A stretch of 51,351 bases of DNA from Planctomycetaceae bacterium. GTDB lineage: Bacteria; Planctomycetota; Planctomycetia; Planctomycetales; Planctomycetaceae. This document shows, one piece after another, positions 14,883 through 33,685 of this stretch (position 1 is the first letter of the stretch; the number at the start of each line of letters is the position of its first letter). The stretch is taken from assembly GCA_021732785.1 (NCBI GenBank), contig JAKFUG010000017.1, positions 1 through 51,351 on the forward strand, given 5' to 3'. The notes under the pieces are model-generated. The model ran no database searches and had not been told where the DNA came from. It was given only the letters and a program-made list of their open reading frames with translations. Made by a program: the position numbers and the translations under genes.

Positions 14883-16979
14883 TCAATGTTTCTTCTTCTT
14901 GGGCATCGTGCCTCGCGCACTATCCCGACGGCTCTTGCGTTGTCGCTTTGGCTTGGCACCCGCCCCATCGACGAAACCGGGCTCGCCATTCTCCGCGGCA
15001 ACCATCTGGCCGATCTGATTCTTCAATTGCAGAATGCGGTCCCGCAACTGGGCGGCCCGTTCAAACTCCAGTGATTCCGCCGCCGTGAGCATTTCCTGTT
15101 CGAGGGCCGCCAGATATTCCTGACTGACGAACTGCGTTTCGCTTTTGGCACCACTCACCTGTTCCACAATCCGGCGGGCTTCGACTTCTTCCTCGATGCC
15201 CCGACGAATCGCTTTCACGATGGTTTCCGGCGTGATGCCGTGCTTCGCGTTGTACGCCGCCTGCAATTTGCGCCGACGATCGGTCTCATCAATCGCCCGC
15301 TGCATGCTGTCGGTCACGCGATCCGCATACAGGACGACTTCGGCATTTACGTTTCGAGCAGACCGGCCAATCGTTTGAATCAAGCTGGTTTCACTACGGA
15401 GAAAGCCTTCCTTATCGGCATCGAGAATGGCGACCAGCGACACTTCCGGCAGATCGAGACCTTCGCGCAACAGGTTCACGCCGACGACCACATCGTACTT
15501 GTTTTCCCGCAATTCCCGCAGGATTTCGACGCGCTCGAACGCATCCAGTTCGGAGTGCAGCCACGCGCATCGCACCGCTTCTTCGCGCAGATACGCCGTT
15601 AAATCTTCCGCAAGCCGCTTGGTTAACGTCGTGACGAGAACCCGTTCGTTGCGAGCCGCGCGGATGCGAATCTGTTCGATGAGGTGCGGCACCTGCCCCC
15701 GCGCGGGATGGATCGAAATCGTCGGATCAATCAAACCCGTCGGCCGGATCACCTGTTCGACGATTTCCCCGCCGGACCGTTCCAGTTCCCAGTCGGCGGG
15801 CGTCGCGGAGACGTAGACCGCCTGCCGACTGCGCGCGTCCCATTCCTCGAATTTCAGCGGACGGTTATCGAGCGCCATTGGCAACCGGAATCCATGATCG
15901 ACCAGCGTCGTCTTGCGGGAATGGTCCCCGGCATACATCGCGCGAATCTGCGGAATCGTGACATGCGATTCATCGATGAACATTAACGCATCTTCCGGGA
16001 AGAAATCTAATAACGTATACGGCGGTTCCCCCGGTTTGCGTCCCGTGAGCGCGCGGCTGTAGTTTTCAATCCCCGGACAGAAGCCGATTTCCCGCAGCAG
16101 TTCGAGATCGTGCCGGGTGCGGGCATTGAGCCGTTGCGCTTCGATCAGCTTCCCTTCCTTGCGGAATTTCTCCAGTTGCAGCACGAGTTCGCGTTCGATT
16201 TCCTGACACGCGGAGTTGACTTTATCCTCGGGCAACACATGATGCTTGGCGGGGTAAACGTAGATTTCATCGAGCCGCTTCAGTTCGTCGCCGGTGACGG
16301 GGCTGATGATCGCGAGCTTTTCGACTTCATCGCCCCAGAACTCGATCCGGTACGCAAATTCCTCGTAGGCCGGCCAGACTTCGACGACATCACCCCGCAC
16401 ACGAAAGTGCGCCCGCGCGGGTTGATAGTCATTGCGGTTGTACTGGATGTCGCACAGTTTGCGCAAAAAAGCATCGCGGTCCTGATTGTCGCCGATCCGC
16501 AGCGGGACCATCGCTTCGAGATAATCCTTCGGCGAGCCCAAACCATAGATGCAACTGACCGACGCCACGACGACCACATCGCGGCGACTCACTAACGCAC
16601 TCGTCGCTGCCAACCGCAAGCGGTCGATTTCCTCGTTGATCGAAGCATCTTTTTCAATATAAATATCGCGCTGCGGGATATACGCTTCTGGTTGGTAGTA
16701 ATCATAATAACTGACGAAATAACTAACGGCATTGTTTGGAAAGAATTCTTTGAATTCTCCATATAACTGTGCAGCCAGAGTTTTATTGTGTGAAAGCACG
16801 AGTGCCGGACGTTGCAGTTCGGCGATGACGTTCGCCATTGTGTAGGTCTTGCCCGAACCGGTGACGCCGAGCAAAACCTGATTCGCTTTTCCTTCCTTCA
16901 CGCCGCGCACGAGGGACTCAATCGCCTTCGGCTGATCCCCGGCGGGCTGGTAGGGGCGGTGTAACTGAAACTGCGACAT
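14883..16979 (-). CDS. uvrB: Excinuclease ABC subunit B
   Basis: 698 residues, slightly longer than E. coli UvrB (673). It has Walker A GVTGSGKT at 38-45, the damage-probing beta-hairpin region YFVSYYDYYQPEAYIP, the Walker B-like MFIDESHVTIPQI and helicase motifs QTIGRSARN and ILREGLDLPEV. It ends with the UVR domain (LEQEMLTAAESLEFERAAQLRDR) that contacts UvrC. UvrB receives DNA from UvrA, verifies the lesion and recruits UvrC in nucleotide excision repair. A further upstream ATG (17003) is open, but MSQFQLH with AGGT upstream is the usual start. The C-terminus carries an extra basic tail (KPKRQRKSRRD...PKKKKH). An AT-ending codon patch at about 16650-16795 is discussed under findings. Confidence 0.97.
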   Translation of the reverse strand: MSQFQLHRPYQPAGDQPKAIESLVRGVKEGKANQVLLGVTGSGKTYTMANVIAELQRPALVLSHNKTLAAQLYGEFKEFFPNNAVSYFVSYYDYYQPEAYIPQRDIYIEKDASINEEIDRLRLAATSALVSRRDVVVVASVSCIYGLGSPKDYLEAMVPLRIGDNQDRDAFLRKLCDIQYNRNDYQPARAHFRVRGDVVEVWPAYEEFAYRIEFWGDEVEKLAIISPVTGDELKRLDEIYVYPAKHHVLPEDKVNSACQEIERELVLQLEKFRKEGKLIEAQRLNARTRHDLELLREIGFCPGIENYSRALTGRKPGEPPYTLLDFFPEDALMFIDESHVTIPQIRAMYAGDHSRKTTLVDHGFRLPMALDNRPLKFEEWDARSRQAVYVSATPADWELERSGGEIVEQVIRPTGLIDPTISIHPARGQVPHLIEQIRIRAARNERVLVTTLTKRLAEDLTAYLREEAVRCAWLHSELDAFERVEILRELRENKYDVVVGVNLLREGLDLPEVSLVAILDADKEGFLRSETSLIQTIGRSARNVNAEVVLYADRVTDSMQRAIDETDRRRKLQAAYNAKHGITPETIVKAIRRGIEEEVEARRIVEQVSGAKSETQFVSQEYLAALEQEMLTAAESLEFERAAQLRDRILQLKNQIGQMVAAENGEPGFVDGAGAKPKRQRKSRRDSARGTMPKKKKH

Positions 16980-17138
16980 ACGGCACCTGATCCTGGACGG
17001 CATCCACGCTCACCTATCGTAGCCGGTTCCCATCCTGTCGGCGAATCGCTTTCCTCCGGGGAAGACATGGCCCAGCATCACAGATTAGATTACTCTGATG
17101 CTTCGTTGTTTGGTTTTCGATGTCGGGGAACGTGCGTG

Positions 17139-20100
17139 ATGCGGAGTCTCCTCACCGGATTTTTGACCGTCGCCTGGACTGCAGGCTTCTTGTCTGCGGC
17201 GGAACCGTCTTTAGCGCACATCGACTTTAACCGCGACATCCGCCCCATCCTTTCCGATGCGTGCTTCCAATGTCACGGCCCGGATGAGAACAAACGGCAG
17301 GCGAACCTGCGGCTTGACACGAAAGACGGGGCCTTCACTGATCTCAATGGTCACGCAGCAATCATTCCCGGTGATGTGACGAAGAGCACGCTGTTGCAGC
17401 GCATCGTTTCGGACGATCCCGACGAACAGATGCCGCCGGCGAAATCGGGAAAGCAGCTCACTGCCGATCAGAAACAAAAGCTGCGGCAATGGATCGCGGA
17501 GGGGGCCCCATGGACCGGGCATTGGTCATTCATCGCCCCGAAAAGGAGTGCAATTCCGCCTGTAACCAAGCAAGAGGATGTAGCCCAACCGATCGATGCG
17601 TTTCTGCTATCCCGACTGGAACAAGCGGAAATCACACCCAATTCACCAACCGATCGCGCGACGTGGTTGCGGCGGGTCACGTTTGATCTGACCGGATTGC
17701 CACCGTCACTCGATGAGTTGGACTTGTTTCTAACCGATGAACATCCCGCGGCGTTCGAGCGTGTCGTGGATCGCCTGCTGGCATCCCCGCGTTACGGCGA
17801 ACGGATGGCGGTGCGGTGGCTGGATGCCGCGCGGTATGCCGACACCAGCGGCTACCAGAGCGATGGCGAACGGTTCATGTGGCGGTGGCGCGACTGGGTG
17901 ATCGACGCTTACAACCAGAACATGCCGTTCGATCAGTTCACCATCGAACAGCTCGCGGGGGACTTGCTGCCGAACCCCACGTTGGAGCAGCGGATCGCGA
18001 CGGGGTTTCATCGCAATCATCGTGGTAACTCGGAGGGGGGCATCGTCCCGGAAGAGTATGCCGCGGAATACGTCGTGGACCGTGTCGAGACGACGTACAC
18101 CGTCTGGATGGGGCTGACGATGGGTTGTGCGCGGTGTCACAGCCACAAGTTCGATCCGCTCACGCAGCGCGAGTTTTACCAGTCGTTCGCCTTCTTCAAC
18201 AACGTCCCGGAGTTCGGCCGCGCATTGAAGTATGGGAACTCGCCGCCGTACATCGCCGCGCCGACATCGGACCAGCAACGGGCTCTCACGCAACTCGAAG
18301 ACCGCTTGTCCGCGGGTCAACGCACCTGGAAGCAACTGGCCCCCGGCATCGAGCAAGCCATCGTGGCATGGGAGGGGACACTCGATCCCAAGACCGCCCC
18401 CGCTTGGTCCTTCACGCAAGATCGGCTGTGGACGGATCCCTTCGATGCGACACCGGAAGAAGCCCGTATTCGCTTCGTCGCCTCCGGCAAAATTGAGTCC
18501 GCTGCGCGATTCGATGGCCAGAATTTTGTCGAGGTGGGAAATGTCGGGGCGTTCGGTTTCCTCGACAAATTCAGCCTCGCCGCGTGGATTCAGCCGCAGG
18601 GCGACCGCGGCGGAACAATTCTTTCCCGGATGACCGACGTCGAACATGGCGATGGTTACGCGCTCGTTCTCGACAACGGTCGGTTGCAACTCAACCTCAT
18701 CAAACGCTGGCTGGATGATGCCCTGCGCGTCGAAACGATCGCCACCATTCCCGCTAACGAATGGCATCACATTGCTGTCACGTATGACGGCTCGCGACTG
18801 GCATCCGGCATTCGGTTTTACCTTGATGGCCAGCTCGTGCCGCATCGGGCCAATCTCGATCTGCTGAATCAAACCTTTGCCTCGAAAGAGCCGCTGCGCA
18901 TCGGCGGCGGCAATGGCCCGCAGGGACGCTTTCACGGATTGATCGACGAAGTCGCGATCTACGGCAGCGTGCTCACCTCGGACGAAGCGGCGACCGTTGC
19001 CACACCGGAGACGGTTCGCGAAATCGTGTCGATCCCGCGCGATCGACGCACCGCGGGACAACAGCGGAAGCTCCGGGCGGCGTTTCTCGAACTGGGAGCG
19101 GCGGACGACATCAAAGCCGCACAAACTCAAGTGGAAGAACTCACGAAGCAGGTCGAAATCTTCCGCGAAACGCTTCCCACGGTGATGGTGATGGAAGAGA
19201 TGCCCACACCGCGGGCCACGCATCTTCTGCTGCGTGGTGAATACGACAAACCGGGCGAGCGCGTCACCGCCGGGCTGCCGGCGTGTCTGCCCTCGATGCC
19301 GGACGACGTTCCGAAAGATCGGCTCGCATTGGCAAGATGGTTGACCGATCCCCGGCATCCTTTGACGGCACGCGTCGCTGTGAATCGCTTGTGGCAGATG
19401 GTTTTCGGCACTGGTCTTGTCAAAACCGTCGACGATTTCGGTTCGCAAGGAGAAGCGGCGAGCCACCCGGAATTGCTCGATTGGCTCGCCGTCGAATTCG
19501 CACAACCCGCTAACGGCGATGGTGCGTGGGATACCAAACGGATGCTGCGATTGATGCTCACCTCCGCGGCGTATCGACGCTCCTCGCACATCACGCCGGA
19601 ATTGTTGCGGCGCGATCCGGAAAATCGTTTGCTCGCGCGGGGACCACGGGTTCGCCTGTCCGCGGAAATGGTCCGGGATCAAGCGCTGTTCGCATCGGGA
19701 CTGCTGGTTGAAAAACTCGGTGGACCTTCAGTGAAGCCGTATCAACCCGCGGGCTTGTGGAAGGAACTCGCCGATACGGATTACGTGCAGGATCACGGCG
19801 AGAAACTGTATCGCCGCAGTCTCTACACCTTCTGGAAGCGCACGATTCCGCCGCCGACGATGTTGTCGTTCGACGCCGCCGGTCGCGAGACATGCGTGGT
19901 CCGCGAGAGCCGCACCAACACACCGCTGCAGGCCCTCATTCTGATGAATGACGTGACGTATGTCGAAGGCGCTCGCCTGCTCGCCGAACGCGCCCGACGG
20001 GAGTCATCACTGGCATTGTCGGACCGACTCACGCATGCCTTTCGTCTCGTGCTGTCACGCCCGCCGCGGTCGGAGGAACTCGCTGTTCTCACGGCCGGTT

Positions 20101-20267
20101 GGCAAGCGCAACGGACTCGTTTCGAGCACGATCCCGAAGCCGTACGTCAATTGTTATCGCAAGGAGAAAGCCCGCGCGTCACCGATGTACGGGATGCCGA
20201 CCGCGCTGTAGATACCGCGATCATGGGGTTGCTGCTCAATCTCGATGAAGCGATCACGAAGGAATGA
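17139..20267 (+). CDS. PSD1-type cytochrome c protein: DUF1549, LamG-like domain, DUF1553
   Basis: 1042 residues. A signal peptide ([23 protein letters not shown]) is followed by a PSCyt1-type haem site, C-F-Q-C-H at 42-46, with the context [24 protein letters not shown]1549 (PSCyt2) spans about 150-360. A concanavalin/LamG-like domain lies at about 440-615 ([28 protein letters not shown]), and DUF1553 (PSD1) at about 730-1000 ([26 protein letters not shown]). These proteins are secreted or periplasmic and, with DUF1501 partners, are a planctomycete speciality probably linked to oxidative attack on polysaccharides (inference from context; no reaction proven). The inserted LamG-like domain supports sugar binding. 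The DUF1501 gene follows after a 128-bp repeat. Confidence 0.92.
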
Positions 20268-20274
20268 ACGATGA

Positions 20275-20402
20275 ACTTGTTCCCACGCTCCGCGTGGGAA
20301 CACACGGCCGCGACGCTCCGCGTTGCATGAACGCTTCTCACAGACACGAAGACGACGCAGAGCGTCGAGGACCGGCATTCCCACGCGGAGCGTGGGAACG
20401 AG
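20275..20402. repeat. 128-bp palindromic element, GTTCCCACGC family, copy 1
   Basis: Outer arms at 20279-20301 and 20376-20399 are near-perfect inverted repeats of GTTCCCACGCTCCGCGTGGG, each itself palindromic. Inner arms GACGCTCCGCG and ACGCAGAGCGTC pair as well, so the unit can fold as a cruciform-like structure. A second copy of equal length lies at 25412-25539. The right edge (GGAACGAGG) supplies the Shine-Dalgarno-like GAGG for the DUF1501 gene. Confidence 0.88.
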
Positions 20403-20410
20403 GAAACACG

Positions 20411-21817
20411 ATGAACACGGAACTGAGTCGTCGCGCGTGGTTGCAACGGACCGGAATCGGCACGGCGGCGCTGGCGGCGTTGTTACCGACGACGGTTCAT
20501 GCGGCCGAGACCGTCTCCCATTTTCCGGCGCGGGCGAAGCGCGTGATTTCGCTGTTCCAATCGGGAGCACCGTCGCAGCTTGATCTGTTCGACTGGAAGC
20601 CGGGTTTGGCGAACCGCCGTGGCGAAGAATTGCCCGAGTCCATTCGTCGCGGACAACGGCTCACCGGCATGACGGCGACGCAAACGAGTTTTCCCGTCGC
20701 GCCGACGAAGTACCAGTTCGCTCAACACGGCGAGAGCGGGGCGTGGATCAGCGAACTGTTGCCGCACACCGCGAAAGTGGCCGACAAACTCTCGTTCATC
20801 AAAACGCTACACACTGAAGCGATCAATCACGACCCGGCGGTGACGTTCTTTCAAACCGGGGCCCAACTCGCGGGGCGACCGAGTCTCGGCGCCTGGCTGG
20901 CGTACGGCCTCGGCAGCGAGAATCGCGATCTGCCGACGTTCGTGGTGATGATCTCGCAAGGCTCGGGCAATCCGAACGACCAACCGCTCTACGACCGGCT
21001 GTGGGGGAGCGGCTTTTTGCCGTCGCGGTATCAGGGGGTGAAGTTCCGCAGCGTCGGCGAACCGGTGCTGTATCTGTCGAACCCGCCGGGGATTGATGGC
21101 ATCGCACGGAGGCGGTTTCTCGACGACCTCGCGAAGCTCAACCAGATGAAACTCGCCGACGCCGGTGATCCGGAAATCGCCACCCGCATCGCGCAGTATG
21201 AAATGGCGTTCCGCATGCAATCCTCGGTGCCGGAACTGACCGATCTCTCTTCGGAATCATCGCACACCTTCGAGATGTACGGTCCCGATGCGTCCAAGCC
21301 GGGCACGTTCGCTGCCAACTGTCTACTCGCGCGGCGATTGGTCGAGCGCGGCGTCCGTTGCGTGCAACTTTTTCATCGCGGGTGGGACCAGCACACGAAG
21401 TTGCCGACGCAGATCGTTGGCCAATGTCGCGACACCGATCAACCTGCGGCCGCGCTGATTCGCGATCTCGAACAACGCGGGTTGCTCGAGGACACGCTCG
21501 TCTTCTGGGGCGGCGAGTTCGGCCGGACGGTGTATTGTCAGGGCACCCTCACGGCGAACGACTATGGCCGCGATCATCATCCGCGCTGCTTTACCGCGTG
21601 GATGGCCGGCGGCGGGATCAAGCCGGGACAATCCATCGGTGTCACCGACGACTACAGCTACAACATCGCGGAACGCCCGGTCCACGTCCACGATTTCCAG
21701 GCGACGATCCTGCATTGTCTGGGGATCGATCACACGCGGCTCACGTTCCGCTCCCAGGGCCGTGATTTCCGTTTGACGGACGTGCATGGCGACGTGGTGA
21801 CGGAGTTGGTGACGTAA
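20411..21817 (+). CDS. DUF1501 protein with Tat signal
   Basis: 468 residues. The N-terminus [11 protein letters not shown] followed by [15 protein letters not shown] is a twin-arginine export signal (Arg7, Arg8), so the protein is folded and perhaps loaded with cofactor before export. The body has DUF1501 features: [61 protein letters not shown] and IDHTRLTF near the end. DUF1501 is related to alkaline phosphatase/sulfatase folds, but its reaction is not established. It pairs with the PSD1 gene just upstream, as usual in planctomycetes. An upstream in-frame ATG (20264) would add 49 residues translated from the repeat, so I use the ATG at 20411, which has GAGGA six bases before it. Confidence 0.9.
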
Positions 21818-21818
21818 A

Positions 21819-21884
21819 CGAGCCCGAAGCGCAAGCGCCGGGTTCTTCTTTTCCAAAGAACCCGGCGCTCGCGCTTCGGGCTCG
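21819..21884. terminator. Perfect hairpin between converging genes (GAGCCCGAAGC family repeat)
   Basis: Arms at 21819-21847 and 21856-21884 pair over 29 bases with at most one mismatch (core GAGCCCGAAGCGCAAGCGCC), around an eight-base loop. It lies between the DUF1501 stop and the stop of the opposing dehydrogenase gene, so it could terminate both. One arm of the same family recurs alone at 31619-31643, also between two converging genes, so this is a dispersed element used as a terminator. Confidence 0.85.
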
Positions 21885-21893
21885 TAAAGAATT

Positions 21894-24800
21894 TTACGGC
21901 GCGGCGACCGCCTGGCGTTGTTGCAGCAGGTATGACAGCAGCGCCCGCAAGTCGTCTTCCTTGAGTTGTTCCGCAAAGTTGGAGGGCATCGGCGAGAGGT
22001 TCGTCTGCCGTTGTTCGTCGATGTCGGTCATCACGACGCGGACTTCTTTGCCTTGAGCATCGCCGAGGATTACCGCGCCCCCTTCTTCGCGGAGTTTCAG
22101 GCCGGTGACGGTGACGCCGTCTTTGGTGACGATGACCGTCGCGCGAAAAGCGCCGTCGACGTTGCGGTTCGGGTCGAGGATGTCTTCGAGCAGACGTTCG
22201 ATGCCGCGGATGCCGACGCCGTCGAGTTGCGGGCCGACTTTGCCGCCTTCGTTTTGGATGCGGTGACAGGCCACGCACGACTTTTTGAAGACTGCCATGC
22301 CCGCGGCCGGGGCATTGTCGGTCGCCGTGAAGCCGCCACCGATGCGGGCGATCGTCTGCTTCAGGCGATCATCTGCCGCGGGAAGTCCGCTTGTGAGTTG
22401 TTCGATCCGCTGATCCCGGTCGGCGATGTTGACCTGCCGCAATCGTTCCAGCACCGGCTGATCCTGCAGCAACCGAGCCGAGACTTTGCCGTTGGCGATC
22501 ATCGCGAAGAGCAATTCGCTCCCTTGCGGACTGCCCGCCAGGGCCAGCGCGAACGGTTGCTGCAACGCCCCCGGGGCGGTGACGAGAGCCGCGGACAAAG
22601 CGTCACGAGTGACGGGATTGTTGAGCGCCCCGAGTCGCTGGGCCGCGACGGTCCGCAAGGCATTCGGTTCTTCCGGATCCTGCACGATCCCCACCAGAGT
22701 TTGAATGGCATCATTCCGCGCGAGTTTCAATCCGGCCGATGACGCCGCGATCCGCACGGGGGCTTCGGCGTGACGGTTCTTCAAACGATCCAGCACGGCC
22801 GTCGCGAGGTCCGTCAGATCGAGTTGTTCCGCGATCTGCACGGCAAGGATCGCGGTCGAATCCGCAAACGCGGCACCCGCGACTGGTGCGGCGACCACCG
22901 GCGGCGAGAACCGGCCCACGGCGAGCCACGCATACGCGGTCCCGGTGTCCGCATCGACCGCTTCAAACACCGCTTGCTGACCGGCCCACGGTTTCGTGTC
23001 CCACGTGTATTCCCGCGCGACATCATTCCGCGGCGGTTCCTGCTTGCGGATCACTTCGCCGCTGTCGACGAGCACCAGCCGCGCATGATTCACCGGCGGC
23101 GGGTTTGTTCCCGGCTGCCCGTTGTGGCCGCACATCCAGAACGTGAACTTCTCTGGCAGCGCGAACGGGGCGGACCGCAGCACGCCGGTGAGCGTCTCCC
23201 CGTTGGCGATGCTGTCGAAGTACAATGCATCCTTGTCACCATCGGTGGAGCCGCGCGGCTTCACACCCCACGGACTTGCAGACGCTCCGGCACCGGGGAG
23301 CAAAAAATTCTCCCACGCCGGGGCACTCTTTCGCTGCGGATCGAGCAACGTCTTCGCCAGCGCGGCTCCCCATTGGCCGACTTTGGTGTTCGCTTCCAGC
23401 TTCTGGCCGCGCTGGGTGAGACCGGCGAAGATCGACTGGAACATCGCTGCCTGTCGGAACACGTCCTGCGGGTACTGCTGCTGCACGAACTCGGCGACCT
23501 CATCCATGCGTTGCGGGCTGACGAACCGGGCCACATGCGTGAGTGACGCCTCGGCGACTTCCGGGGCGACGGTGTGCTGCCGCAGATAATCGAACGTGAA
23601 CCACGCCGCGGCTTCATTGGGCACCGCCCGCGCGATCTCGGCGACCTTCTCCAATTCGGACGGGACGAGTTTCACCGTCGCCAGTTGATCGAGAATCGCC
23701 GGGGACCGCAGTTGATTCCGCAGCGCGATCTTCGTGGCATGAATCAACTGCACGTCATCGCGATCCGTGGTGATGAGCATCGCCGCCAGCGGTTGCACAT
23801 TCGCCGCATCGGGATGCCGGCCGAGAGCTTCGACAGCAGCGCGACGGACGAAGGGGCTATCATCATTGAGTGCGTTGCTGACGATTCCTGCGATCGGCAT
23901 TGCCCATGCTTTCCGCTCACCAAGGATCCGAGCGAGATGAACGCGAACGAAATCAGAAGGATGTTTGGCCAATCGTATTGAAATCGAATCAGGCAGTCCG
24001 CCTTGTTGTTCGAGAATCCACATCGCTTGAACGCATTCGCTAGCCGACTCGGACGAAGCGCTTCCGATGATTGCAGTAACAGCATTAGCCTGAAATCCGC
24101 TGCCGAATCCGGGAATAATATCTCGCAGCAGGTATTCGTTCCTGGCAAGATTTCGCGTAGCGATATTGAGACTGCCCAGCGAATCTATCAACTGATTGAG
24201 TTTAGTCGTATGCAGATTCGGCGGTGTCGGCGCGGCCTGCTTCTTGTCGGTGCCCGTGTAGACCACGCGCCAGATGCGGCCGCGGTGACGGTCGCGGCGG
24301 GGGTGCTTCAGGTCGACTTCGTAATGACCGATGATGCTGTTGTAGAAGTCCGCAATGTACAACGCGCCGTCCGGGCCGAGCTGCATGTCGACCGGATGGT
24401 GCCACCAATCATCGCACACCAGAAAATCCTGCGGCTTCTCGATCCACGGCGACGACCCGCGCCACTGGATCACGTCGCGGTGAATCCGGTTCGTCACCAC
24501 ATTGCAGACGAACAGATTGCCCCGATATTCCGCCGGGAAATGATCGGCTTCATACACCGCGACGCCGGAGATGCCCGTCGAGCCGTGATCGTTCGAGGTC
24601 ATGATCGGCGCGAAGCCGAGGCCATCGTGCGGCTTGCCGAAGCTGTCATGATAGCTGCCGCGGAGAATCATCGTGATCGGCTTGGAATGGCAGTCCGCGG
24701 TAAACATGTCGCCGCGGGCATCGAAGCACATTCCAAAGGGGTTCACCTGTCCCCAACTGATCTGCTCGATCGCCGAGCCATCCGGCCGGAAGCGGTAGGT

Positions 24801-25571
24801 GTTGCCCGAGGTCATCTCCAGCACGACCGGCCCCTGCCCCTTGAGCTTCACCTTCGACGCATTGCGGAAGCCGTGGCAGGCGTAGACCCAGCCGTCGGGG
24901 CCGAGTCGAAACGCGTTCTGGTTGCCGTGCGTGTCGACGTAATCGAACGGTCCATACAGAATCTCGCGCTGGTCGACTTTGCCATCGCTATCGGAGTCGG
25001 TCAGCTTCCAGATGTAGGGGATCGACCACGCGATGACATCTTTTCCGTTGGGCATGGGGAGCACGCCGATGGGAATGTTCAGATCCTCGGCGAATTTGGT
25101 GATTTTCGTCGCGCGGCCGTCCGCCCCGATGCCGTCGAGAATGGTGATGCCATCCCGCGCGGGCATCCCTTCCGGCACCGCCCACGGGTACTCGATGGAG
25201 TGCGACACCCACAACCGCCCGCGGGCATCAAACGCCAGATTCATCGGCTTCTGAATGTCCGGCTCACTGGCGACCAGTTGAATCTCAAACCCCGGCGGCA
25301 GATGAAATTTTTTGATCTGTTCCGCGGGGGTGAGCGGATCGGTCTCCGCGACCGGCGGCCCGGCGATTAACGATGTCGCCATCAAGCCCATCACAACGGC
25401 CGCGTTCTGAACTCGTTCCCATGCTCCGCGTGGGAACGCACGGCCGAGACGCTCCGCGTCGACCGCAATCAACCGCTGATTGAGAAGACGACGCAGAGCG
25501 TCGCGGCCCGGCATTCCCACGCAGAGCGTGGGAACGAGGGAAAAGGGGACAAACGATAGACAACGCAACAT
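21894..25571 (-). CDS. PVC-type haem-binding membrane-bound dehydrogenase with HEAT repeats
   Basis: About 1225 residues. The first domain is a six-bladed propeller of the sugar dehydrogenase / NHL type (FHLPPGFEIQLVASEPDIQKPMNLAFDARGRLWVSHSIEYP). It is followed by HEAT-like helices (about 540-800), a middle region and a C-terminal cytochrome c domain with C-V-A-C-H at 1099-1103 (KKSCVACHRIQNEGGKVGPQLDGVG). This layout matches the planctomycete membrane-bound dehydrogenase / haem-binding family; it is presumably exported and oxidises a sugar-like substrate. The ATG at 25571 has AGGAG ten bases upstream and begins MLRCLSFVPFS. The next 43 or so residues are translated from a 128-bp repeat, and a normal hydrophobic signal core (VVMGLMATSLIAGPP) resumes after it. 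An internal start at 25391 is the main alternative. Confidence 0.88.
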   Translation of the reverse strand: MLRCLSFVPFSLVPTLCVGMPGRDALRRLLNQRLIAVDAERLGRAFPRGAWERVQNAAVVMGLMATSLIAGPPVAETDPLTPAEQIKKFHLPPGFEIQLVASEPDIQKPMNLAFDARGRLWVSHSIEYPWAVPEGMPARDGITILDGIGADGRATKITKFAEDLNIPIGVLPMPNGKDVIAWSIPYIWKLTDSDSDGKVDQREILYGPFDYVDTHGNQNAFRLGPDGWVYACHGFRNASKVKLKGQGPVVLEMTSGNTYRFRPDGSAIEQISWGQVNPFGMCFDARGDMFTADCHSKPITMILRGSYHDSFGKPHDGLGFAPIMTSNDHGSTGISGVAVYEADHFPAEYRGNLFVCNVVTNRIHRDVIQWRGSSPWIEKPQDFLVCDDWWHHPVDMQLGPDGALYIADFYNSIIGHYEVDLKHPRRDRHRGRIWRVVYTGTDKKQAAPTPPNLHTTKLNQLIDSLGSLNIATRNLARNEYLLRDIIPGFGSGFQANAVTAIIGSASSESASECVQAMWILEQQGGLPDSISIRLAKHPSDFVRVHLARILGERKAWAMPIAGIVSNALNDDSPFVRRAAVEALGRHPDAANVQPLAAMLITTDRDDVQLIHATKIALRNQLRSPAILDQLATVKLVPSELEKVAEIARAVPNEAAAWFTFDYLRQHTVAPEVAEASLTHVARFVSPQRMDEVAEFVQQQYPQDVFRQAAMFQSIFAGLTQRGQKLEANTKVGQWGAALAKTLLDPQRKSAPAWENFLLPGAGASASPWGVKPRGSTDGDKDALYFDSIANGETLTGVLRSAPFALPEKFTFWMCGHNGQPGTNPPPVNHARLVLVDSGEVIRKQEPPRNDVAREYTWDTKPWAGQQAVFEAVDADTGTAYAWLAVGRFSPPVVAAPVAGAAFADSTAILAVQIAEQLDLTDLATAVLDRLKNRHAEAPVRIAASSAGLKLARNDAIQTLVGIVQDPEEPNALRTVAAQRLGALNNPVTRDALSAALVTAPGALQQPFALALAGSPQGSELLFAMIANGKVSARLLQDQPVLERLRQVNIADRDQRIEQLTSGLPAADDRLKQTIARIGGGFTATDNAPAAGMAVFKKSCVACHRIQNEGGKVGPQLDGVGIRGIERLLEDILDPNRNVDGAFRATVIVTKDGVTVTGLKLREEGGAVILGDAQGKEVRVVMTDIDEQRQTNLSPMPSNFAEQLKEDDLRALLSYLLQQRQAVAAP
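25412..25539. repeat. 128-bp palindromic element, GTTCCCACGC family, copy 2, inside a coding region
   Basis: Same architecture and length as 20275-20402: outer arms at 25414-25438 and 25511-25538 (core CCCACGCNGAGCGTGGGAACG) and inner arms GACGCTCCGCG and ACGCAGAGCGTC. It lies within the 5' end of the haem dehydrogenase gene and is read through in frame on the minus strand, giving residues such as LVPTLCVGMPGRDALRR and [10 protein letters not shown]. The plus-strand translation of copy 1 is very similar, so the element stays open in the same frame in both places. Confidence 0.88.
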
Positions 25572-25640
25572 GGAAAAGACGCTCCTGAGAAGTCGCGTCA
25601 TCTTAACCGCTGGTTGGTCCGTGGGGGAAATGACTTCCCG

Positions 25641-25725
25641 GTAGGGTTTGCCGAGTCCGCGAGGCGAACCGAATGCGTTCGCGGTAATCCGAAATGGTTC
25701 GCCTCGAAGACTCGGCAAACCCTAC
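25641..25725. repeat. Palindromic element, GGTTTGCCGAGTC family, copy 1
   Basis: Left arm 25641-25670 (GTAGGGTTTGCCGAGTCCGC...) and right arm 25696-25725 (...GACTCGGCAAACCCTAC) pair except for two internal positions. Copies at 26370-26445 and 29197-29281 have the same asymmetry and the same orientation. It lies in the divergence-free gap between the dehydrogenase start and the stop of the small membrane protein gene. Confidence 0.88.
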
Positions 25726-25738
25726 GATTTCGGACCGA

Positions 25739-26194
25739 TTACTTGCGTTGTGAAAGTGAGCAAGACGTTGGCTCAAAATCAACAAACAACCTGGCGATGG
25801 CGGCCCTGTTTCCTGACGCCAAAAGCACTTGTAATCGGCGATCAAATTCACGCTCAGCAAGATCGCTCATGATTTGCTCGTCTGTATTTACCAGACAGGC
25901 AAATGCGATCACTGGATGCTGTACCGGCGTGTGATCGATCAACCATTCCGCAGGCGGGAAGCAATACCGCCGCAGTTCCTGCCACATCTCAAATCGGCGA
26001 ATCGCTTCCGGCGACCGCTCGGCGTACGCCGAGACGCCTCCCATCGAAAATAATTTTATACTTTCCGCATCCGACCCAACGAGCAATCGATATGCCATCG
26101 GATAGCTGGCCAGATATCCGGTCGGCAGCAGAAACAGAGCCACCGCAACGGCGATGATCCGTCCGCGCTTCGTGAGAAACGGATTCCATCTCAT
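25739..26194 (-). CDS. Small single-pass membrane protein, function unknown
   Basis: 151 residues. A basic N-terminus (RWNPFLTKRGR) is followed by one hydrophobic helix (IIAVAVALFLLPTGYLASYPMAY) and a mostly helical, charged domain (SPEAIRRFEMWQELRRYCFPPAEWLIDHTPVQHPV, then AEREFDRRLQVLLASGNRAA). No known family was recognised. The ATG at 26194 has GGAGG seven bases upstream, which is strong support for the start and for real coding; a TTG two codons earlier is also open. It lies between two palindromic elements and is transcribed towards the haem dehydrogenase, but its job there is unknown. The third-position base composition is less GC-rich than that of neighbours such as cstA. Confidence 0.65.
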   Translation of the reverse strand: MRWNPFLTKRGRIIAVAVALFLLPTGYLASYPMAYRLLVGSDAESIKLFSMGGVSAYAERSPEAIRRFEMWQELRRYCFPPAEWLIDHTPVQHPVIAFACLVNTDEQIMSDLAEREFDRRLQVLLASGNRAAIARLFVDFEPTSCSLSQRK

Positions 26195-26369: not shown

Positions 26370-26445
26370 GTAGAGTTCGCCGAGTCCGCGAGGCGAACCA
26401 CTTCGATGCAAAAAAGGTTCGCCTCGCAGACTCGGCAAACCCTAC
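26370..26445. repeat. Palindromic element, GGTTTGCCGAGTC family, copy 2
   Basis: Left arm 26370-26399 and right arm 26416-26445 match the copies at 25641 and 29197, in the same orientation, with a shorter loop. It ends three bases before the stop codon of the DUF4328 gene and could serve as its terminator. Confidence 0.88.
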
Positions 26446-27249: not shown

Positions 27250-27424
27250 GACGAACGCTCTCCGAAAGGATCAAAAAACGCCTTGAGATTCGGCAGCACA
27301 GAGTAAAACGGCGGGTGACACAAAGCTATCCCGGAGATTGTGCAGGAAGATCACAATTCGCGCCGGTCTCCCTTTCGGGTTACAATCTGTGGTTCACCCG
27401 GAAAATGTGACTCGGAGCGCTGCG

Positions 27425-29182
27425 ATGTTGATGGTGGTCGTAATCTCGGCGGTGGTGTTGTCCGTCGCGTATGTCACGTATGGACCGCTGCTGGTCCGGT
27501 TGTTGAGGCTCGATCCGCACGCGCGGACACCGGCGTATGAGTATCGGGATGATGTCGACTACGCGCCGCTCGAACCGAATGCGCTGCTGAGCCAGCACTT
27601 CTCGGCGATTGCGGCGGCGGGGCCGATTGTGGGGCCGATTCTCGCCGGGGTGATGTTCGGCTGGCTGCCCGCGCTCATCTGGATTCTCGTCGGGTGCGTC
27701 TTCATCGGCGGCGTGCATGACATCACCGCCCTCACGGCATCGATCCGGCACAAGGCCCGGTCCATCGCCGAGGTCGTCCGCGAACATATGTCCCGGCGGG
27801 CGTTTGTGCTGTTTCTCAGTTTTGTGTGGCTCGCTCTGGTTTACATCATCATCGCGTTCACCGATGTCACCGGCCGGGCGTTCGTGGGGATCGTGAAACT
27901 CGAAAACGGCGAATCGGTCTCCGGGGCGGGCATCGCGTCGTCCTCGCTGATGTATCTCGCGCTGCCGATCCTCATGGCCCTGGCGATGAAATACGGAAAA
28001 CTGTCGCTGAACTGGGCGACGATCATTTTTCTGCCGCTCGTGGGCGTGTCGATCTGGGCCGGGCAGCAATTGCCGTTCGATCTGGCCCCGGTGCTGCGTT
28101 CGATCTGGCCGGATGCCAATGACGAAACCGCCCGGAAAGCGTGGGATATTCTGCTGCTTGGGTATTGCTGCATCGCGTCCGTTGTGCCGATGTGGTTGCT
28201 GCTGCAACCTCGCGGCCATCTCGGCGGATACTTCTTGTATGTCGCACTCATCGGAGGTGCCGCAGGGTTGGTGATTGCGAGTGTGACCGGGCAGGAGGCG
28301 ATTCGTTACACCGACGTGATTGCGTCGCCGTCGCAACCCATCTTCCCCGTGCTCTTCATCACGATCGCGTGCGGGGCGTGCTCGGGATTCCATTCTTTAA
28401 TTGCCTCCGGAACGACCTCGAAACAACTGCGGGTGGAAACGGACGCCAAGCTCATTGGCTATGGCGCGATGTTGCTCGAAGGGATGGTCGCGGTGCTGTC
28501 GCTGTGTTGCGTGATGCGGCTGGCTCCGACCGATCCGCTGCGGAACGCGGACCCGAATCTGGTCTACGCCTCGGGCATCGGGGCGTTTCTCAAGGTCTTC
28601 GGCATTCCGCCGCAACTCGCGGTGTCGTTCGCGCTCATGGCCTTCACCACGTTTGTGTACGACACCCTCGATGTCTGCACACGGCTCGGGCGGTTCATCA
28701 TTCAGGAACTCACCGGCTGGCAGGACGCGAAAGGCAAATGGCTCGGCACGCTCCTCACCGCCGGCGTCCCCGTGTTCTTTGTGACCCAGACGATGACCAA
28801 CGTCGACGGCAAAGTCGCTCCGCTGTGGCGCGTCTTCTGGGGCCTGTTCGGTGCGAGCAATCAACTTCTCGCCGCCCTCACATTGCTGGGCGTCACTGTC
28901 TGGTTGTGGCGCACCCGCCGTGAAACGTGGGTGTGGATCGTCACCGGCATTCCCACCGTGTGGATGTACGTGATGAGTACCTGGGCGCTCGGCCGGATGA
29001 TCGTCGCGCGGTGGTCGACGTTGAATGATGTTCCCGCTGCGTGGTTTTCCAACGTGCTGGTGCTATCGATCTCGCTGGTGCTGGTGGTTCTGGCAACCCT
29101 CATGCTGGTGGAAGCGATCGTCGCCTTGATGCCGCGCCGGCCTACGGGTGGGGAAACGAAACCGGTGCTCGTCCCGGCATAG
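27425..29182 (+). CDS. cstA: Carbon starvation protein A family carrier
   Basis: 585 residues, very hydrophobic, with around 14-16 helices. Family hallmarks are visible: EPNALLSQHFSAIAAAGPIVGPILAGVMFGWLPALIWILVGCVFIGGVHD near the start, GACSGFHSLIASGTTSKQL in the middle and WRVFWGLFGASNQLLAALTL near the end. CstA-type proteins import peptides or pyruvate into the cytoplasm, the latter shown for enterobacterial members. It is shorter than E. coli CstA (701 residues), as in the many compact homologues that lack part of the C-terminus. The ATG at 27425 begins with a membrane helix; a frame open to 27338 adds a non-hydrophobic leader and is less likely. The next gene is a secreted peptidase, so uptake of released peptides is an attractive but untested link. 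Confidence 0.9.
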   Translation: MLMVVVISAVVLSVAYVTYGPLLVRLLRLDPHARTPAYEYRDDVDYAPLEPNALLSQHFSAIAAAGPIVGPILAGVMFGWLPALIWILVGCVFIGGVHDITALTASIRHKARSIAEVVREHMSRRAFVLFLSFVWLALVYIIIAFTDVTGRAFVGIVKLENGESVSGAGIASSSLMYLALPILMALAMKYGKLSLNWATIIFLPLVGVSIWAGQQLPFDLAPVLRSIWPDANDETARKAWDILLLGYCCIASVVPMWLLLQPRGHLGGYFLYVALIGGAAGLVIASVTGQEAIRYTDVIASPSQPIFPVLFITIACGACSGFHSLIASGTTSKQLRVETDAKLIGYGAMLLEGMVAVLSLCCVMRLAPTDPLRNADPNLVYASGIGAFLKVFGIPPQLAVSFALMAFTTFVYDTLDVCTRLGRFIIQELTGWQDAKGKWLGTLLTAGVPVFFVTQTMTNVDGKVAPLWRVFWGLFGASNQLLAALTLLGVTVWLWRTRRETWVWIVTGIPTVWMYVMSTWALGRMIVARWSTLNDVPAAWFSNVLVLSISLVLVVLATLMLVEAIVALMPRRPTGGETKPVLVPA

Positions 29183-29196
29183 ACGTAGTCGTAATC

Positions 29197-29281
29197 GTAG
29201 GGTTTGCCGAGTCCGCGAGGCGAACCTGAGTTTGTCCCCACGCGAAGAAGAGGTTCGCCTCGAAGACTCGGCAAACCCTAC
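29197..29281. repeat. Palindromic element, GGTTTGCCGAGTC family, copy 3
   Basis: Left arm 29197-29226 and right arm 29252-29281 match the copies at 25641 and 26370, in the same orientation; only the loop differs. It lies between the cstA stop and the S9 peptidase start. Confidence 0.88.
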
Positions 29282-29315
29282 CTGCTCCAGTCGCGATCAT
29301 GGGAATCGGGCCAAC

Positions 29316-31610
29316 ATGAACCTGTCATTCATCGGCAAGCCATGCTTGCCCAAGGCTGCAAGCATGGCACCCTGTTGTCCCGGTTTGGTGAAGACGTGTG
29401 TCTTTGCGCTGCTGCTGTGTGCCGCATCCTCCGCGTTCGCTCAGGGTCGCCAGGCCGACTACGACCACATGCAGCGTTGGCAAACAGCGACGCGGCAACC
29501 GATCTTTCGCAACCGTGTTCAATTGCACTGGCTGCCCGAAGACCGCGGCGGCTGGTACCGCGTGGCGGTTGCTCCGAACGAGCATGAATTCGTTGTCTTT
29601 GACACCGCTACCGGCACGCGCCGCTCGGCATTTGATGCTGCGAAACTCGCAACCGAACTCGCGAAGCAATCGGGGCGTGAAGTCCAACCGCGACAGTTGC
29701 CGTTCGAGGAAATCACACTGTCCGCTGATCTGAAGACGGTCTCGTTCACATTCTTTCATCAACAGTGGACGTGGTCCGAGCGGGATGGCCAATTGACGTC
29801 AATCGCGGAGCGTCCCCCCGTACCTTCTTCACCAGAACCGGCCGACAACCCGCGGCGACGGCGACGGCCGGGGCAGGCGTCGCCGGAGGGAACGCAGACC
29901 ATCGTGCGGCGTGGTCAGAATCTCTTTGTGCGACAGGCGGGTGATGGGGCCGAGCGTGCGCTGACCACCGACGGCGTTGCTGAAAACTTCTACGAAGACC
30001 GAATGTCATGGTCGCCAGACGGCCGCTTCCTGTTGGCATGGAAAACGGTGCCTGGGGAAGACCACAAAGTCTACTTGATCGAATCGTCGCCACGCGATCA
30101 GACGCAACCGAAACTGCACAACTACGATTACCACAAGCCCGGCGACCGATTGCCCGTCTCCAAGCCCGTGCTGATCGATATCGCCGCGGGGAAGGTGACG
30201 CCGATCGCGGACGGCCTCTTTCCCAATCCGTGGAGTCTCACGCAGGAAACGTGGTCGGCGGATTCGACGCGCTGCGGGTTCCTCTACAACCAGCGGGGCC
30301 ATCAGACGCTGCGCTGGATCGAAGTCACGGCGGCAACGGGGGCCGCACGGACGATCATCGACGAGACCAGTCCGACATTTGTCGATTATGCCCACAAGCA
30401 ATATCTGCATCGTGTCGATACAACGAACGAACTCCTCTGGATGTCCGAGCGCAACGGCTGGAATCATCTCTATCTCATCGACGGCGACACGGGCAGCGTG
30501 AAGAACGCCATCACGAGCGGCCCGTGGGTGGTCCGCGCGGTGGATCGTGTCGATGAAGAGAAACGCCAGATCTGGTTCCAGGCCGGCGGCATTCGTCCTG
30601 AACAAGACCCCTATTATCTGCATCATTGCCGGGTCAATTTCGATGGCAGTGGGCTGACGATTCTCACAGAAGGCGATGGGACGCACCGCATCGAGTGGTC
30701 CCCGACCGGAGCGTTCTTCACCGATACTTATTCGCGCGTCGACATGCCGCCGGTGACGGAACTGCGACGCGAAGATGGCCGCTTCGTCTGTGAACTGGAG
30801 CGGGCCGATGTTTCGCACTTATCGAAAGTGAACTGGACAACCCCCGAACGGTTTGTTGCCAAGGGACGCGATGGAACGACCGACATCCACGGCGTGATTT
30901 ATTGGCCGACTAACTTCGATCCCAACGAAAGATATCCGGTGATCGAGTGCATCTATGCCGGGCCGCATGGGTCGCATGTGCCGAAGGAGTTTCGGACCTC
31001 GCATTACGGGCAGGATCTTGCGGAACTCGGGTTCATTGTCGTCCGGATGGATGGGATGGGGACGTCGAATCGCAGTAAGGCGTTTCACGATGTCTGCTGG
31101 AAGAACCTCGGCGATTCCGGCTTCCCCGACCGCATTCTCTGGATGAAAGCGGCCGCGGAAAAACACCCGCAGATGGATCTCACCCGCGTCGGCATCTTCG
31201 GGGGCTCGGCGGGCGGGCAAAGTGCCGTCCGCGCGCTCGAAGCCCACGGCGATTTTTACAAAGCCGCCGTCGCCGATTGCGGCTGCCACGACAACCGCAT
31301 GGATAAAGTCTGGTGGAACGAACTCTGGATGGGTTACCCCGTCGGTCCGCATTACGCCGAGCAATCGAATGTGACGAATGCCCACAAATTGCAGGGAAAA
31401 CTGCTGCTCGTGGTGGGCGAACTGGATCGCAACGTGGACCCGGCGTCGACGATGCAGGTGGCGGATGCTCTCATCCGCGCGAACAAGGATTTCGATCTGC
31501 TCGTCATGACGGGTGCGGGTCACGGTTCCGCGGAAAGCCCGTACGGACAACGCCGCCGGGCCGATTTCTTCGTACGGCACCTCTGGAACCGCGAACCCCG
31601 CGGCGAATAA
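29316..31610 (+). CDS. S9 family prolyl oligopeptidase (DPP IV-like), secreted
   Basis: 764 residues. A signal peptide (LVKTCVFALLLCAASSAFAQG) precedes an eight-bladed beta-propeller (about 60-500; FYEDRMSWSPDGRFLLAWK, NELLWMSERNGWNHLYLID) and a C-terminal alpha/beta-hydrolase. The nucleophile is Ser631 in FGGSAGGQSA, the likely acid is Asp704 in VVGELDRNVDP and the histidine is His736 in TGAGHGS, a complete S9 triad. The family cleaves short peptides after proline or alanine; here it would act outside the cytoplasmic membrane. The ATG at 29316 is taken as start; an ATG at 29364 would give a more compact signal peptide, and the residues between them are translated from a small palindrome. It follows cstA and converges on the ABC permease. 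Confidence 0.88.
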   Translation: MNLSFIGKPCLPKAASMAPCCPGLVKTCVFALLLCAASSAFAQGRQADYDHMQRWQTATRQPIFRNRVQLHWLPEDRGGWYRVAVAPNEHEFVVFDTATGTRRSAFDAAKLATELAKQSGREVQPRQLPFEEITLSADLKTVSFTFFHQQWTWSERDGQLTSIAERPPVPSSPEPADNPRRRRRPGQASPEGTQTIVRRGQNLFVRQAGDGAERALTTDGVAENFYEDRMSWSPDGRFLLAWKTVPGEDHKVYLIESSPRDQTQPKLHNYDYHKPGDRLPVSKPVLIDIAAGKVTPIADGLFPNPWSLTQETWSADSTRCGFLYNQRGHQTLRWIEVTAATGAARTIIDETSPTFVDYAHKQYLHRVDTTNELLWMSERNGWNHLYLIDGDTGSVKNAITSGPWVVRAVDRVDEEKRQIWFQAGGIRPEQDPYYLHHCRVNFDGSGLTILTEGDGTHRIEWSPTGAFFTDTYSRVDMPPVTELRREDGRFVCELERADVSHLSKVNWTTPERFVAKGRDGTTDIHGVIYWPTNFDPNERYPVIECIYAGPHGSHVPKEFRTSHYGQDLAELGFIVVRMDGMGTSNRSKAFHDVCWKNLGDSGFPDRILWMKAAAEKHPQMDLTRVGIFGGSAGGQSAVRALEAHGDFYKAAVADCGCHDNRMDKVWWNELWMGYPVGPHYAEQSNVTNAHKLQGKLLLVVGELDRNVDPASTMQVADALIRANKDFDLLVMTGAGHGSAESPYGQRRRADFFVRHLWNREPRGE
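29339..29368. repeat. Short perfect palindrome at the 5' end of the S9 peptidase gene
   Basis: GCCATGCTTGC at 29339-29349 and GCAAGCATGGC at 29358-29368 pair perfectly across an eight-base loop. The right arm contains the alternative ATG at 29364. It may be a fragment of a dispersed element or may control translation; the sequence alone does not decide. Confidence 0.55.
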
Positions 31611-31618
31611 TTTTCCGA

Positions 31619-31643
31619 CGAGCCCGAAGCGCCAGCGCCGGGT
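31619..31643. repeat. Solitary arm of the GAGCCCGAAGC family
   Basis: CGAGCCCGAAGCGCCAGCGCC and the following bases match the left arm of the hairpin at 21819-21884 with one change, but no matching right arm follows; the sequence runs straight into the stop codon of the ABC permease. It is a truncated or decayed copy between two converging genes. Confidence 0.7.
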
Positions 31644-31645
31644 CA

Positions 31646-33505
31646 TCACGCGAGTTCCAGTGCCAAATCTTCAATCGGCGCTTCGGCACGCTGCGTGGAC
31701 CTCGTCAATGCTTGCGGAGCCCGTGTTCGCAGCCAGTAAACCACGCCGCCGTAGAACAACCAGTGCAGAATCTCCGCCATCCCGGCAATCGGCATCAGCG
31801 GCGTCTCACCGCGGTAGGGGTACGGCGACGGCGTGCTGCGCGCATCAAAAAAATTACTGCATGGGAAAAGAATCTGAATCAGATGGCCGGTCCACGCAAT
31901 ATCCTCCTGGAAGGCCCGATAGGACGGATCATAATACGACATGTTCGATCCGCTATTAAAATACGGCGCAGATGCGGGCAGCAGCATGGGGAGAATGATC
32001 CGCGGCACGCCGACCAGCACCGCGAGAATCACCACGCCTAACAACATCGCCTGCGTTTGCGACTTGCAATACAGACCGCAGTAGAACCCACCCCACGCAA
32101 TCAGCGGCAGATAGATCAGCGGCTGCACGATCATGCGGACCAGTTGCCAGATGGCATCCAGCGGAGGCTGCTGGTTGTGTTGTCCGGCACCGAGCCAGAA
32201 GAGCCAGAAAATCGCCGCCGTTCCCATCGGTACCAGCAGGATCTTGATGAGGTAATGGACCCCGGCCATTTTCTGCATCACAATGTCGCGGGTCAGCATC
32301 GGCGTCGACAGAAGGACATCCAAGGTCTGCCGGGAGCGTTCGCCGGTGATGAGGGCCGTCGACTGCACCAGCAACATGAAGACCGCCAGCAGCCACACGG
32401 CCTGCAAGGCCCATTCGCCCGTCGCAAATCGACGGTTTTCGTACACCTCGCCGGTTGCCAACGGCCACAACAATGCGGCAATCAGCGGGGCTTCCGTCAG
32501 CAGCAGGAAACGGATGAGATACCGCATGGTGCCGAGCGAACGCTTGTTGAGTTCCCGCCACGCCAGCGGCCGGGCGGTCGGGAGGGGAACGTGATCGCGA
32601 AAGATGACCACGCCGCGGGTGACGACATTCTGATTGATGACGTGAAAGAACCGATCAAGCGCCCGCAGCAGCATCAGCCCCCATGATCGCGCCGTCAAAA
32701 ACGCCCGCGGCCAGAGGGCGAGGCGAGCCGCAAAGAGACAGGCAAATACGGGAAGTATCGCCCATCCGACGCACGTCGCCAGGTTTGATTCACGAAAATA
32801 TTGATTCAATGAGAGATAGACGCCAGGGCTCACAGTCCCAATCACCAACTGATCCAGCAGTCGCTCTTCACCTGTGTAAAGAACCGGGGATGCCTGTGTC
32901 ATCGAGCGAGCGTAGAGGACTCCGCAGAACTGCGTCAACCCGATGAGCAGGTACGCAGAAACGACTGCTTGCGGCGTCGTACGGAACCACGCCGAACACA
33001 ACACCGCGAGGCTGCCGACTTGCAACACGCACAGCACCAGCACCACACCGGCCTGCAACACCTGACCGTTTTCGACACCGCCGAGGCTGTACGCCACGGC
33101 GAGCAGCGGCAGCGACATCAGGATATAGAGCAGCATCGGCACGACGCGGCTGAGAAACTTTTCCAGCACGATCGTCCACGGACCGAGCTTCGTGATGAGC
33201 AGAATGCCAAGCGTGTCGCGCTCTTTCTCCGAGGTAATCGTCCCCGCGGTGATCATCGGCAGCAGCAGATAGATCGCCGCTAACTGATACTGCACGACCG
33301 CCGTGAACAACCGCCCGCCGGTGCCGAGAATGTTGAACGACAGATTATCCCACCCGCCGGACTGATTGACGAACGCCCCCAGACCCACGCCATACAGCGC
33401 GATGGCATACACCGTGCGCAGAATGAACGTCCGCCCGCGCGAAGACTGTTCGGTCAACTCTTTGGAGAGGAGCGGCAGCGAGAGTTGGGAGAGCAGCGCG
33501 TTCAT
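31646..33505 (-). CDS. ABC-2 type transporter permease
   Basis: 619 residues with a dozen or more hydrophobic helices in two similar halves. Each half contains the ABC-2 permease pattern: TSEKERDTLGILLITKLGPWTIVLEKFLSR in the first and TGERSRQTLDVLLSTPMLTRDIVMQKMAG in the second, each followed by several helices. The protein is therefore probably a fused or tandem ABC-2 permease. The substrate is unknown; relatives act in export or gliding-type complexes. The longer open frame to 33682 is repeat-derived; the ATG at 33505 (MNALLSQLSLPLLSKEL) is chosen. The ATPase gene lies 180 bases upstream on the same strand with a palindromic element in between, so the pair should form one transporter. Confidence 0.87.
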   Translation of the reverse strand: MNALLSQLSLPLLSKELTEQSSRGRTFILRTVYAIALYGVGLGAFVNQSGGWDNLSFNILGTGGRLFTAVVQYQLAAIYLLLPMITAGTITSEKERDTLGILLITKLGPWTIVLEKFLSRVVPMLLYILMSLPLLAVAYSLGGVENGQVLQAGVVLVLCVLQVGSLAVLCSAWFRTTPQAVVSAYLLIGLTQFCGVLYARSMTQASPVLYTGEERLLDQLVIGTVSPGVYLSLNQYFRESNLATCVGWAILPVFACLFAARLALWPRAFLTARSWGLMLLRALDRFFHVINQNVVTRGVVIFRDHVPLPTARPLAWRELNKRSLGTMRYLIRFLLLTEAPLIAALLWPLATGEVYENRRFATGEWALQAVWLLAVFMLLVQSTALITGERSRQTLDVLLSTPMLTRDIVMQKMAGVHYLIKILLVPMGTAAIFWLFWLGAGQHNQQPPLDAIWQLVRMIVQPLIYLPLIAWGGFYCGLYCKSQTQAMLLGVVILAVLVGVPRIILPMLLPASAPYFNSGSNMSYYDPSYRAFQEDIAWTGHLIQILFPCSNFFDARSTPSPYPYRGETPLMPIAGMAEILHWLFYGGVVYWLRTRAPQALTRSTQRAEAPIEDLALELA

Positions 33506-33533
33506 GAGCGGTTCATCTACTGGTATTCCAATA

Positions 33534-33652: not shown

Positions 33653-33685
33653 CTTAACTCGCTTGGCTGTACCGGAAGGCATCCC

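Follow-up and report, generated by a model that had tools for sequence, protein, structure and literature searches.

A palindromic repeat within the signal-peptide region of a planctomycete gene for a PVC-type haem protein

The haem protein gene and its leader

The window, that is, the whole stretch of 51,351 nucleotides that was analysed, comes from the genome assembly of a Planctomycetaceae bacterium (GCA_021732785.1, contig JAKFUG010000017.1, positions 1 to 51,351). On its minus strand lies a gene for a PVC-type haem-binding CxxCH protein, and a palindromic element lies within the leader codons of this gene. The relevant features, some of them defined by comparison with a second genome of the same genus (G002), are as follows.

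21894–25571, minus strand: gene for a PVC-type haem-binding CxxCH protein, in which the element lies; an open frame of 1,225 residues
25582–25586, minus strand: Shine-Dalgarno sequence AGGAG, common to the G002 orthologue
25569–25571, minus strand: ATG start codon, common to the G002 orthologue
25539–25571, minus strand: first 11 codons (MLRCLSFVPFS), the first seven conserved in G002
25412–25538, minus strand: palindromic element, an inverted dimer of 127 bp inside the signal-peptide codons
25513–25535, no strand assigned: terminal hairpin in the start-side arm of the element
25490–25502, no strand assigned: inner hairpin GACGCTCTGCGTC in the start-side arm, read from the sequence
25448–25460, no strand assigned: inner hairpin GACGCGGAGCGTC in the other arm, read from the sequence
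25415–25437, no strand assigned: terminal hairpin in the other arm
25352–25411, minus strand: remaining leader codons on the far side of the element, VQNAAVVMGLMATSLIAGPP, a sequence that opens with the element's final base
20276–20402, no strand assigned: the other copy of the family within the window, which is intergenic and has a G002 counterpart with a 28-bp deletion

The product of the gene passes the curated cut-offs of both TIGR02604 (236.5 bits, cut-off 122.2) and TIGR02603 (98.6 bits, cut-off 68.15), and in Pfam it matches DUF7133, HEAT_2, and Cytochrom_C. Read from the start, the protein consists of MLRCLSFVPFS, 42 element-derived residues, VQNAAVVMGLMATSLIAGPPVAETDP, and the mature protein. 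A previous sequence-only reading of this DNA had described AGGAG and a start followed by MLRCLSFVPFS, a translated repeat, and the mature protein, and this order is confirmed on the minus strand. It had also stated that the element has no stop codon in the frame used, and the frame of 1,225 residues is indeed open throughout. The repeat that it gave as 128 bp and about 43 residues is real and slightly smaller; the ends that are common to other copies set the element, which reads CTCGTTCCCACGC...GCATGGGAACGAG, at 127 bp, or 42 codons and one base. Four candidate internal starts (25394, 25391, 25385, and 25382) are found in the remainder of the leader.

A family of palindromic elements

The element belongs to a family with at least 41 full copies in the source genome (6.69 Mb in 96 contigs), a lower bound that rests on scoring 40 of 100 first-look candidates. 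We aligned the 41 full copies and set partial pieces aside (three from one listing); single arms of the element are also found in addition to full copies. The architecture consists of two conserved arms (mean majority base 0.91) around a variable centre (0.51). Across the 36 stem pairs, pairing is retained in 1448 of the 1476 cells, which is the inverted-arm arrangement of REP and REPIN sequences, and the terminal inverted repeats (CTCGTTCCC...GGGAACGAG) are of the kind expected of MITEs. Copies end in CTCG, or in the variants CTTG and CTCA, and often have an A before and a T after them. The bias is toward A at positions −1 (30 of 41) and −2 (23 of 41), and toward T at +1 (29 of 41) and +2 (27 of 41). 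The GTAG or CGTC tag found at the foot of REP palindromes is absent from all 41 copies.

The family occurs far beyond chance. In the source genome its terminal hairpin is matched 98 times in forward and 99 times in reverse orientation; the corresponding counts are 49 and 48 in G002 and two and two in G001, another genome of the genus, and a reversed-pattern control has no matches in any of the three. The 10-mer GTTCCCACGC alone, searched in the window with one mismatch, is not above chance (nine matches versus 6.3 expected). Across 99 genomes, the hairpin pattern with up to three mismatches, which is one base off for the source genome, has at least one match in 12, the source genome included.

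No stem pair is altered on both sides among the 41 copies of the source genome, and these copies therefore give no covariation. Some compensatory stem changes are present across genomes, in G003, where CCCAGGC replaces CCCACGC in all 17 listed hairpins and is matched by the partner GCCTGGG in 15 and by the wobble partner GCTTGGG in two. In an unbiased ranking of the copies, made with a view to their age, the one in the haem gene is tied at the top with six others (85 of 92). The 41 copies spread only from 79 to 85, too narrow a range to indicate the age of this copy.

As RNA, the element is predicted to form a single hairpin of −104.7 kcal/mol, compared with a mean of −53.0 (sd 4.0) for shuffled sequences, none of 200 of which was as low. 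The 231-nt leader region of the haem gene also folds well under its shuffles (z −10.1). Positions 25300–25800 have four matches in Rfam up to E = 1, all far under the gathering scores; three are microRNA precursors and one is an sRNA, as expected from a near-perfect hairpin.

A search of phages with the element gave no match, and a search of plasmids matched one record. One arm is located at L170 2501–2550 (NZ_CP020372.1 395023–395072), on a plasmid of the gammaproteobacterium Candidatus Thiodictyon syntrophicum, with 84.6% identity over 52 query bases and no gene listed beneath it. This arm is the only match to the family found outside Planctomycetes, and it suggests that the family may cross phyla. 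Similar peptides (SHAERGNE) presumably occur in hypothetical proteins of Pseudomonas. At another locus (L041) two half elements lie in the correct order about 355 bp apart, at 535–599 and 955–1012, perhaps one copy that was interrupted in its centre. A literature search that included the string GTTCCCACGC found no description of the family, which does not prove that none exists.

Genomic location and open frames

Most copies follow genes. The distance to the stop codon of a coding-like ORF, called by a codon-preference score trained on the long ORFs of the window, is 30 bp or less in 25 of 41 copies and 150 bp or less in 30, so that in location the family is extragenic and near stop codons, as REPs are. 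Where ORFs cross an element, at the 41 copies or at another 12 pieces from ten additional loci, the coding score supports one side only, and the other side never scored above 2.2. Two-sided coding support is found only at 25412–25538. By the codon-preference score alone the far side of this element is also weak (−3.1 over 61 codons), and support for the second side comes from the comparison with G002. In G010, where 19 of 20 fetched loci hold 20 element places, there is no clear coding case; one locus (L176) has a weak coding score of 15.9 on one side of the element and 1.1 on the other. The family is thus extragenic by habit, and the copy in the haem gene is the exception.

Elements of this family tend to lack stop codons. 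Of 82 arms, 82, 82, and 78 are open in the three inward frames and 80, 79, and 81 in the outward frames, where about 68–70 are expected; 23 to 35 of the 41 whole copies are open per frame, where about 20 are expected. Because the family is open in most frames, an open frame through an element is weak evidence of coding.

The second copy in the window illustrates this point. The sequence-only reading had placed it at 20275 and noted that it is open in the matching frame. The copy, which begins at 20276, is open, and as a hint of coding the observation does not hold, since the copy is intergenic. It sits 8 bp behind a stop codon and ahead of the start of the next gene, and its G002 counterpart lacks 28 bp; a coding role was therefore rejected. 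For annotation, an open frame that runs through such an element upstream of a gene is not evidence of coding.

The empty site and the history of the insertion

The orthologue in G002 has the same AGGAG, the same ATG, and the same MLRCLSF, followed by an ordinary short leader without the repeat, and reads MLRCLSFVVLSCCAITTFAGPPVAETDP. An in-frame stop is found upstream in G002, so the shared ATG is the first one there. The seven MLRCLSF codons differ between the two genomes by two changes, both of which are synonymous. BLAST detected the element in none of 29 homologous loci (L010–L038). It was likewise absent from the region of up to 600 bases before the match in 35 named loci, taken from 42 by omitting seven in which the match is inside the gene or remote; the two sets overlap in several records (for example, L088 and L010). 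The other genome of the genus, G001, has only a 51% match and is little informative.

The empty site in G002 and the absence of the element from the 29 homologous loci indicate that the element was inserted and is not native. This agrees with the earlier claim of a repeat inserted into a signal peptide. That claim had come with the suggestion of an orthologue comparison, in which a segment carried by all orthologues without the DNA repeat would be taken as native, and the orthologues compared here do not carry it. A native origin of the 43-residue segment, with no more than a likeness to the repeat, was rejected and has next to no chance of being correct. We found no point in its support, none of the 29 homologous or 35 named loci has the segment, and at least 41 DNA copies, mostly extragenic, lie elsewhere in the genome.

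Short repeats can mis-join contigs, and in an assembly fragmented into 96 contigs two loci might have been joined artificially through a copy of the repeat. Such an artefact is very improbable here, since the two flanks of the element adjoin at a single G002 locus, with 60 bp matching at 90% on the upstream side and 564 bp at 93% on the downstream side. Gene order also matches on both sides, with window positions 10630–25364 and 27411–36571 mapping in order to positions 53802–66868 and 67709–76714 of G002 contig C5.

An insertion in the lineage of the source genome would be the simplest history. The leader, however, exceeds that of G002 by 153 bp (51 codons), which is 26 bp beyond the length of the element, and the segment directly behind the element matches G002 at only 23 of 41 bases, compared with 93% over the next 564 aligned bases; the surplus and the diverged segment indicate that the history is not that of a clean insertion. 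Moreover, a length of 127 or 128 bp is not divisible by three. Exact removal of the element would consequently not restore the frame, and the earlier statement that removal would join the two parts into an ordinary signal peptide has to be dropped. The haem gene is mosaic relative to G002 elsewhere (11–15 of about 50 residues identical over residues ~450–550, and 49–50 of 50 just before), and the leader may therefore derive from a diverged allele. A donor of the diverged leader segment elsewhere in the source genome was rejected, since the 12 further matches there all have E ≥ 0.067. Within the gene, a patch at about 23856–24219 of the window is strongly diverged from G002, as if an allele had been exchanged.

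Probable start and proposed export of the leader

The sequence-only reading had offered either an extended leader or a start inside the gene, at 25391 or 25382. At 25571, the source genome and G002 have the same Shine-Dalgarno energy, −7.1 kcal/mol. Among 392 ATGs sampled from the window the median is −2.4 and the 5% quantile is −6.0. In-frame starts behind the element have energies from −1.7 to −2.5, and starts inside the element have 0. An upstream ATG at 25601 has −3.2 and is out of frame in G002, and a TTG at 25568 shares the good Shine-Dalgarno of 25571. Folding does not favour 25571, which has a mean pairing of 0.59 versus 0.53 at 25391.

The leader forms were also compared by hydropathy and charge. 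The long form carries a net charge of +5 ahead of its hydrophobic maximum (2.20); a further hydrophobic stretch, at residues 8–18 (1.89), extends into the element. In the form from 25391, no charge precedes the peak, which is lower (1.56). The orthologue in G035 likewise lacks charge ahead of its peak by this crude charge measure, so the missing charge is no decisive argument against the short form.

Given the stronger Shine-Dalgarno at 25571 and the positive charge that precedes the core only in the long form, the extended leader is favoured over the internal starts. With moderate confidence, we propose that a normally extragenic palindromic element inserted into the signal-peptide codons of this gene, and that translation still begins at the original ATG at 25571, behind the conserved Shine-Dalgarno, and reads through the element. 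The leader made by read-through would count 73 residues as far as AGPP. An n-region of about 53 residues, made up of the first residues together with the element and its charged end, would precede the hydrophobic core AAVVMGLMATSLIAG; signal peptidase would cut behind this core and leave the mature protein unchanged. A c-type haem protein with a CxxCH motif needs export for maturation. We infer the start that is used, and the export and cleavage of the long leader, from the comparisons above. Against read-through, the −104.7 kcal/mol hairpin directly behind the start could slow ribosomes or be cut.

A second possibility is that the element has cut off the old start; the same hairpin could hinder ribosomes arriving from 25571. 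Translation would then begin at 25394, 25391, or 25382, where an in-frame GTG and ATG stand directly behind the element, to give a very short leader (MGLMATSLIAGPP...), and the element would in effect be 5' untranslated sequence. The relevant passages of a survey of GTAG and CGTC REPs reach a comparable judgement, namely that in many cases a REP at a predicted N terminus is probably non-coding because translation starts downstream (PMC3733652). The internal starts, however, have a weak Shine-Dalgarno near the background median, no positive charge, and a short core, and the old Shine-Dalgarno, ATG, and first codons are intact and in frame. We regard an internal start as unlikely.

Alternatively, the hairpin may act mainly at the RNA level, by braking translation or by being cut by RNase III, with the product lowered or abolished and the gene damaged or newly controlled. 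The exceptionally low folding energies of the element and of the 231-nt leader region are consistent with such an effect. The gene body, however, carries no signs of decay, with 1,225 residues open and at least 45 of 50 residues matching G002 in 13 of 18 fifty-column blocks between residues 100 and 999, and cutting by RNase III is presumed. This possibility appears improbable. A further, improbable reading is that the element has been co-opted: its translated product would form the n-region of a very long signal peptide that works, and as a hairpin in the mRNA it would control the same gene. If true, one mobile palindrome would provide both a protein-targeting segment and an RNA switch.

With an empty site in the same genus and the same start, the gene provides a comparative case in which a mobile palindrome has entered a part of an exported protein that is among the least constrained. 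It raises the questions of whether a hairpin of about −105 kcal/mol that begins 33 bases behind the start can be read by ribosomes, and whether an n-region as long as about 53 residues is compatible with export.

Comparison with known repeats

The element family resembles REP, BIME, and REPIN sequences of the GTAG and CGTC super-families, which are short inverted-pair palindromes with many copies in extragenic positions, and its behaviour is like that of an inverted REP dimer. REPs, according to the passages of the survey that treat their location, usually lie close to the 3' end of the ORF upstream of them and rarely inside ORFs, where they are often N-terminal; the survey text also mentions that Rickettsia conorii proteins with an N-terminal RPE-1 are expressed (PMC3733652). 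Rickettsia palindromic elements (RPEs) are described, in the corresponding sections of another study, as palindromes of 105–146 bp with a long stem-loop that are fused in frame in protein genes, one fusion product being translated and active (PMC2229807). In-frame fusions of RPEs are also treated in part of a review (PMC10969869). In contrast to RPEs, which are in frame in many genes, the family described here has one clear case in 41 copies and 12 pieces, by a comparison of descriptions.

The enterobacterial elements RU-1/ERIC and RU-2/YPAL are also similar, being, in the passages that describe them, MITE-like intergenic repeats with open frames, some of them fused to genes in frame. In YPO1552, according to the same passages, the repeat itself is part of the predicted signal peptide of a protein of 144 residues (size from PMC2229807), whereas here the protein is large and conserved, and the element divides its signal peptide and presumably extends the n-region. 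The event is rare, yet its kind is already known, with REP, RPE, and RU elements described as doing similar things.

Mobility and neighbouring palindromes

A flanking direct repeat of 4 bp was found at none of the 41 copies, and at one when one end is shifted by a base; repeats of 5–8 bp or longer were found at none. At 25412–25538 only 3 bp (TTC, minus strand) can be aligned as a direct repeat, with a one-base shift, and the target-site duplication that had been suggested around 25412 and 25539 is thus not significant. The absence of target duplications argues against an ordinary DDE-type MITE. It also distinguishes the family from RU-1 and RU-2, which are listed with target duplications in the relevant part of the RU literature (PMC2229807).

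No RAYT (Y1 transposase) flanked by the same hairpin within about 1.5 kb was found at any of the nine Y1 places of the source genome or at the 27 scanned of 81 Y1 places in other genomes (36 of 90 in all). Two loci, L070 and L072, gave only an 8-base half-site and BLAST matches of 12 to 19 bases at the level of chance. The family differs from REPs in its CTCG ends, which take the place of GTAG or CGTC, and may also differ from them in the lack of such a partner. Other GC-rich hairpins lie beside RAYT-like genes at three Y1 transposase loci of the source genome (L069, L072, and L074), and these may be separate REP families.

A second palindromic family is present in the window as inverted pairs starting with GTAGGGTTTGCCGAG, at 25641–25725, 26370–26445, and 29197–29281. 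It has six matches in the window, where 0.05 are expected, and is tagged with GTAG like one of the REP super-families. One of its copies, which has no counterpart in the aligned stretch of G002, is located 70 bp upstream of the start of the haem gene.
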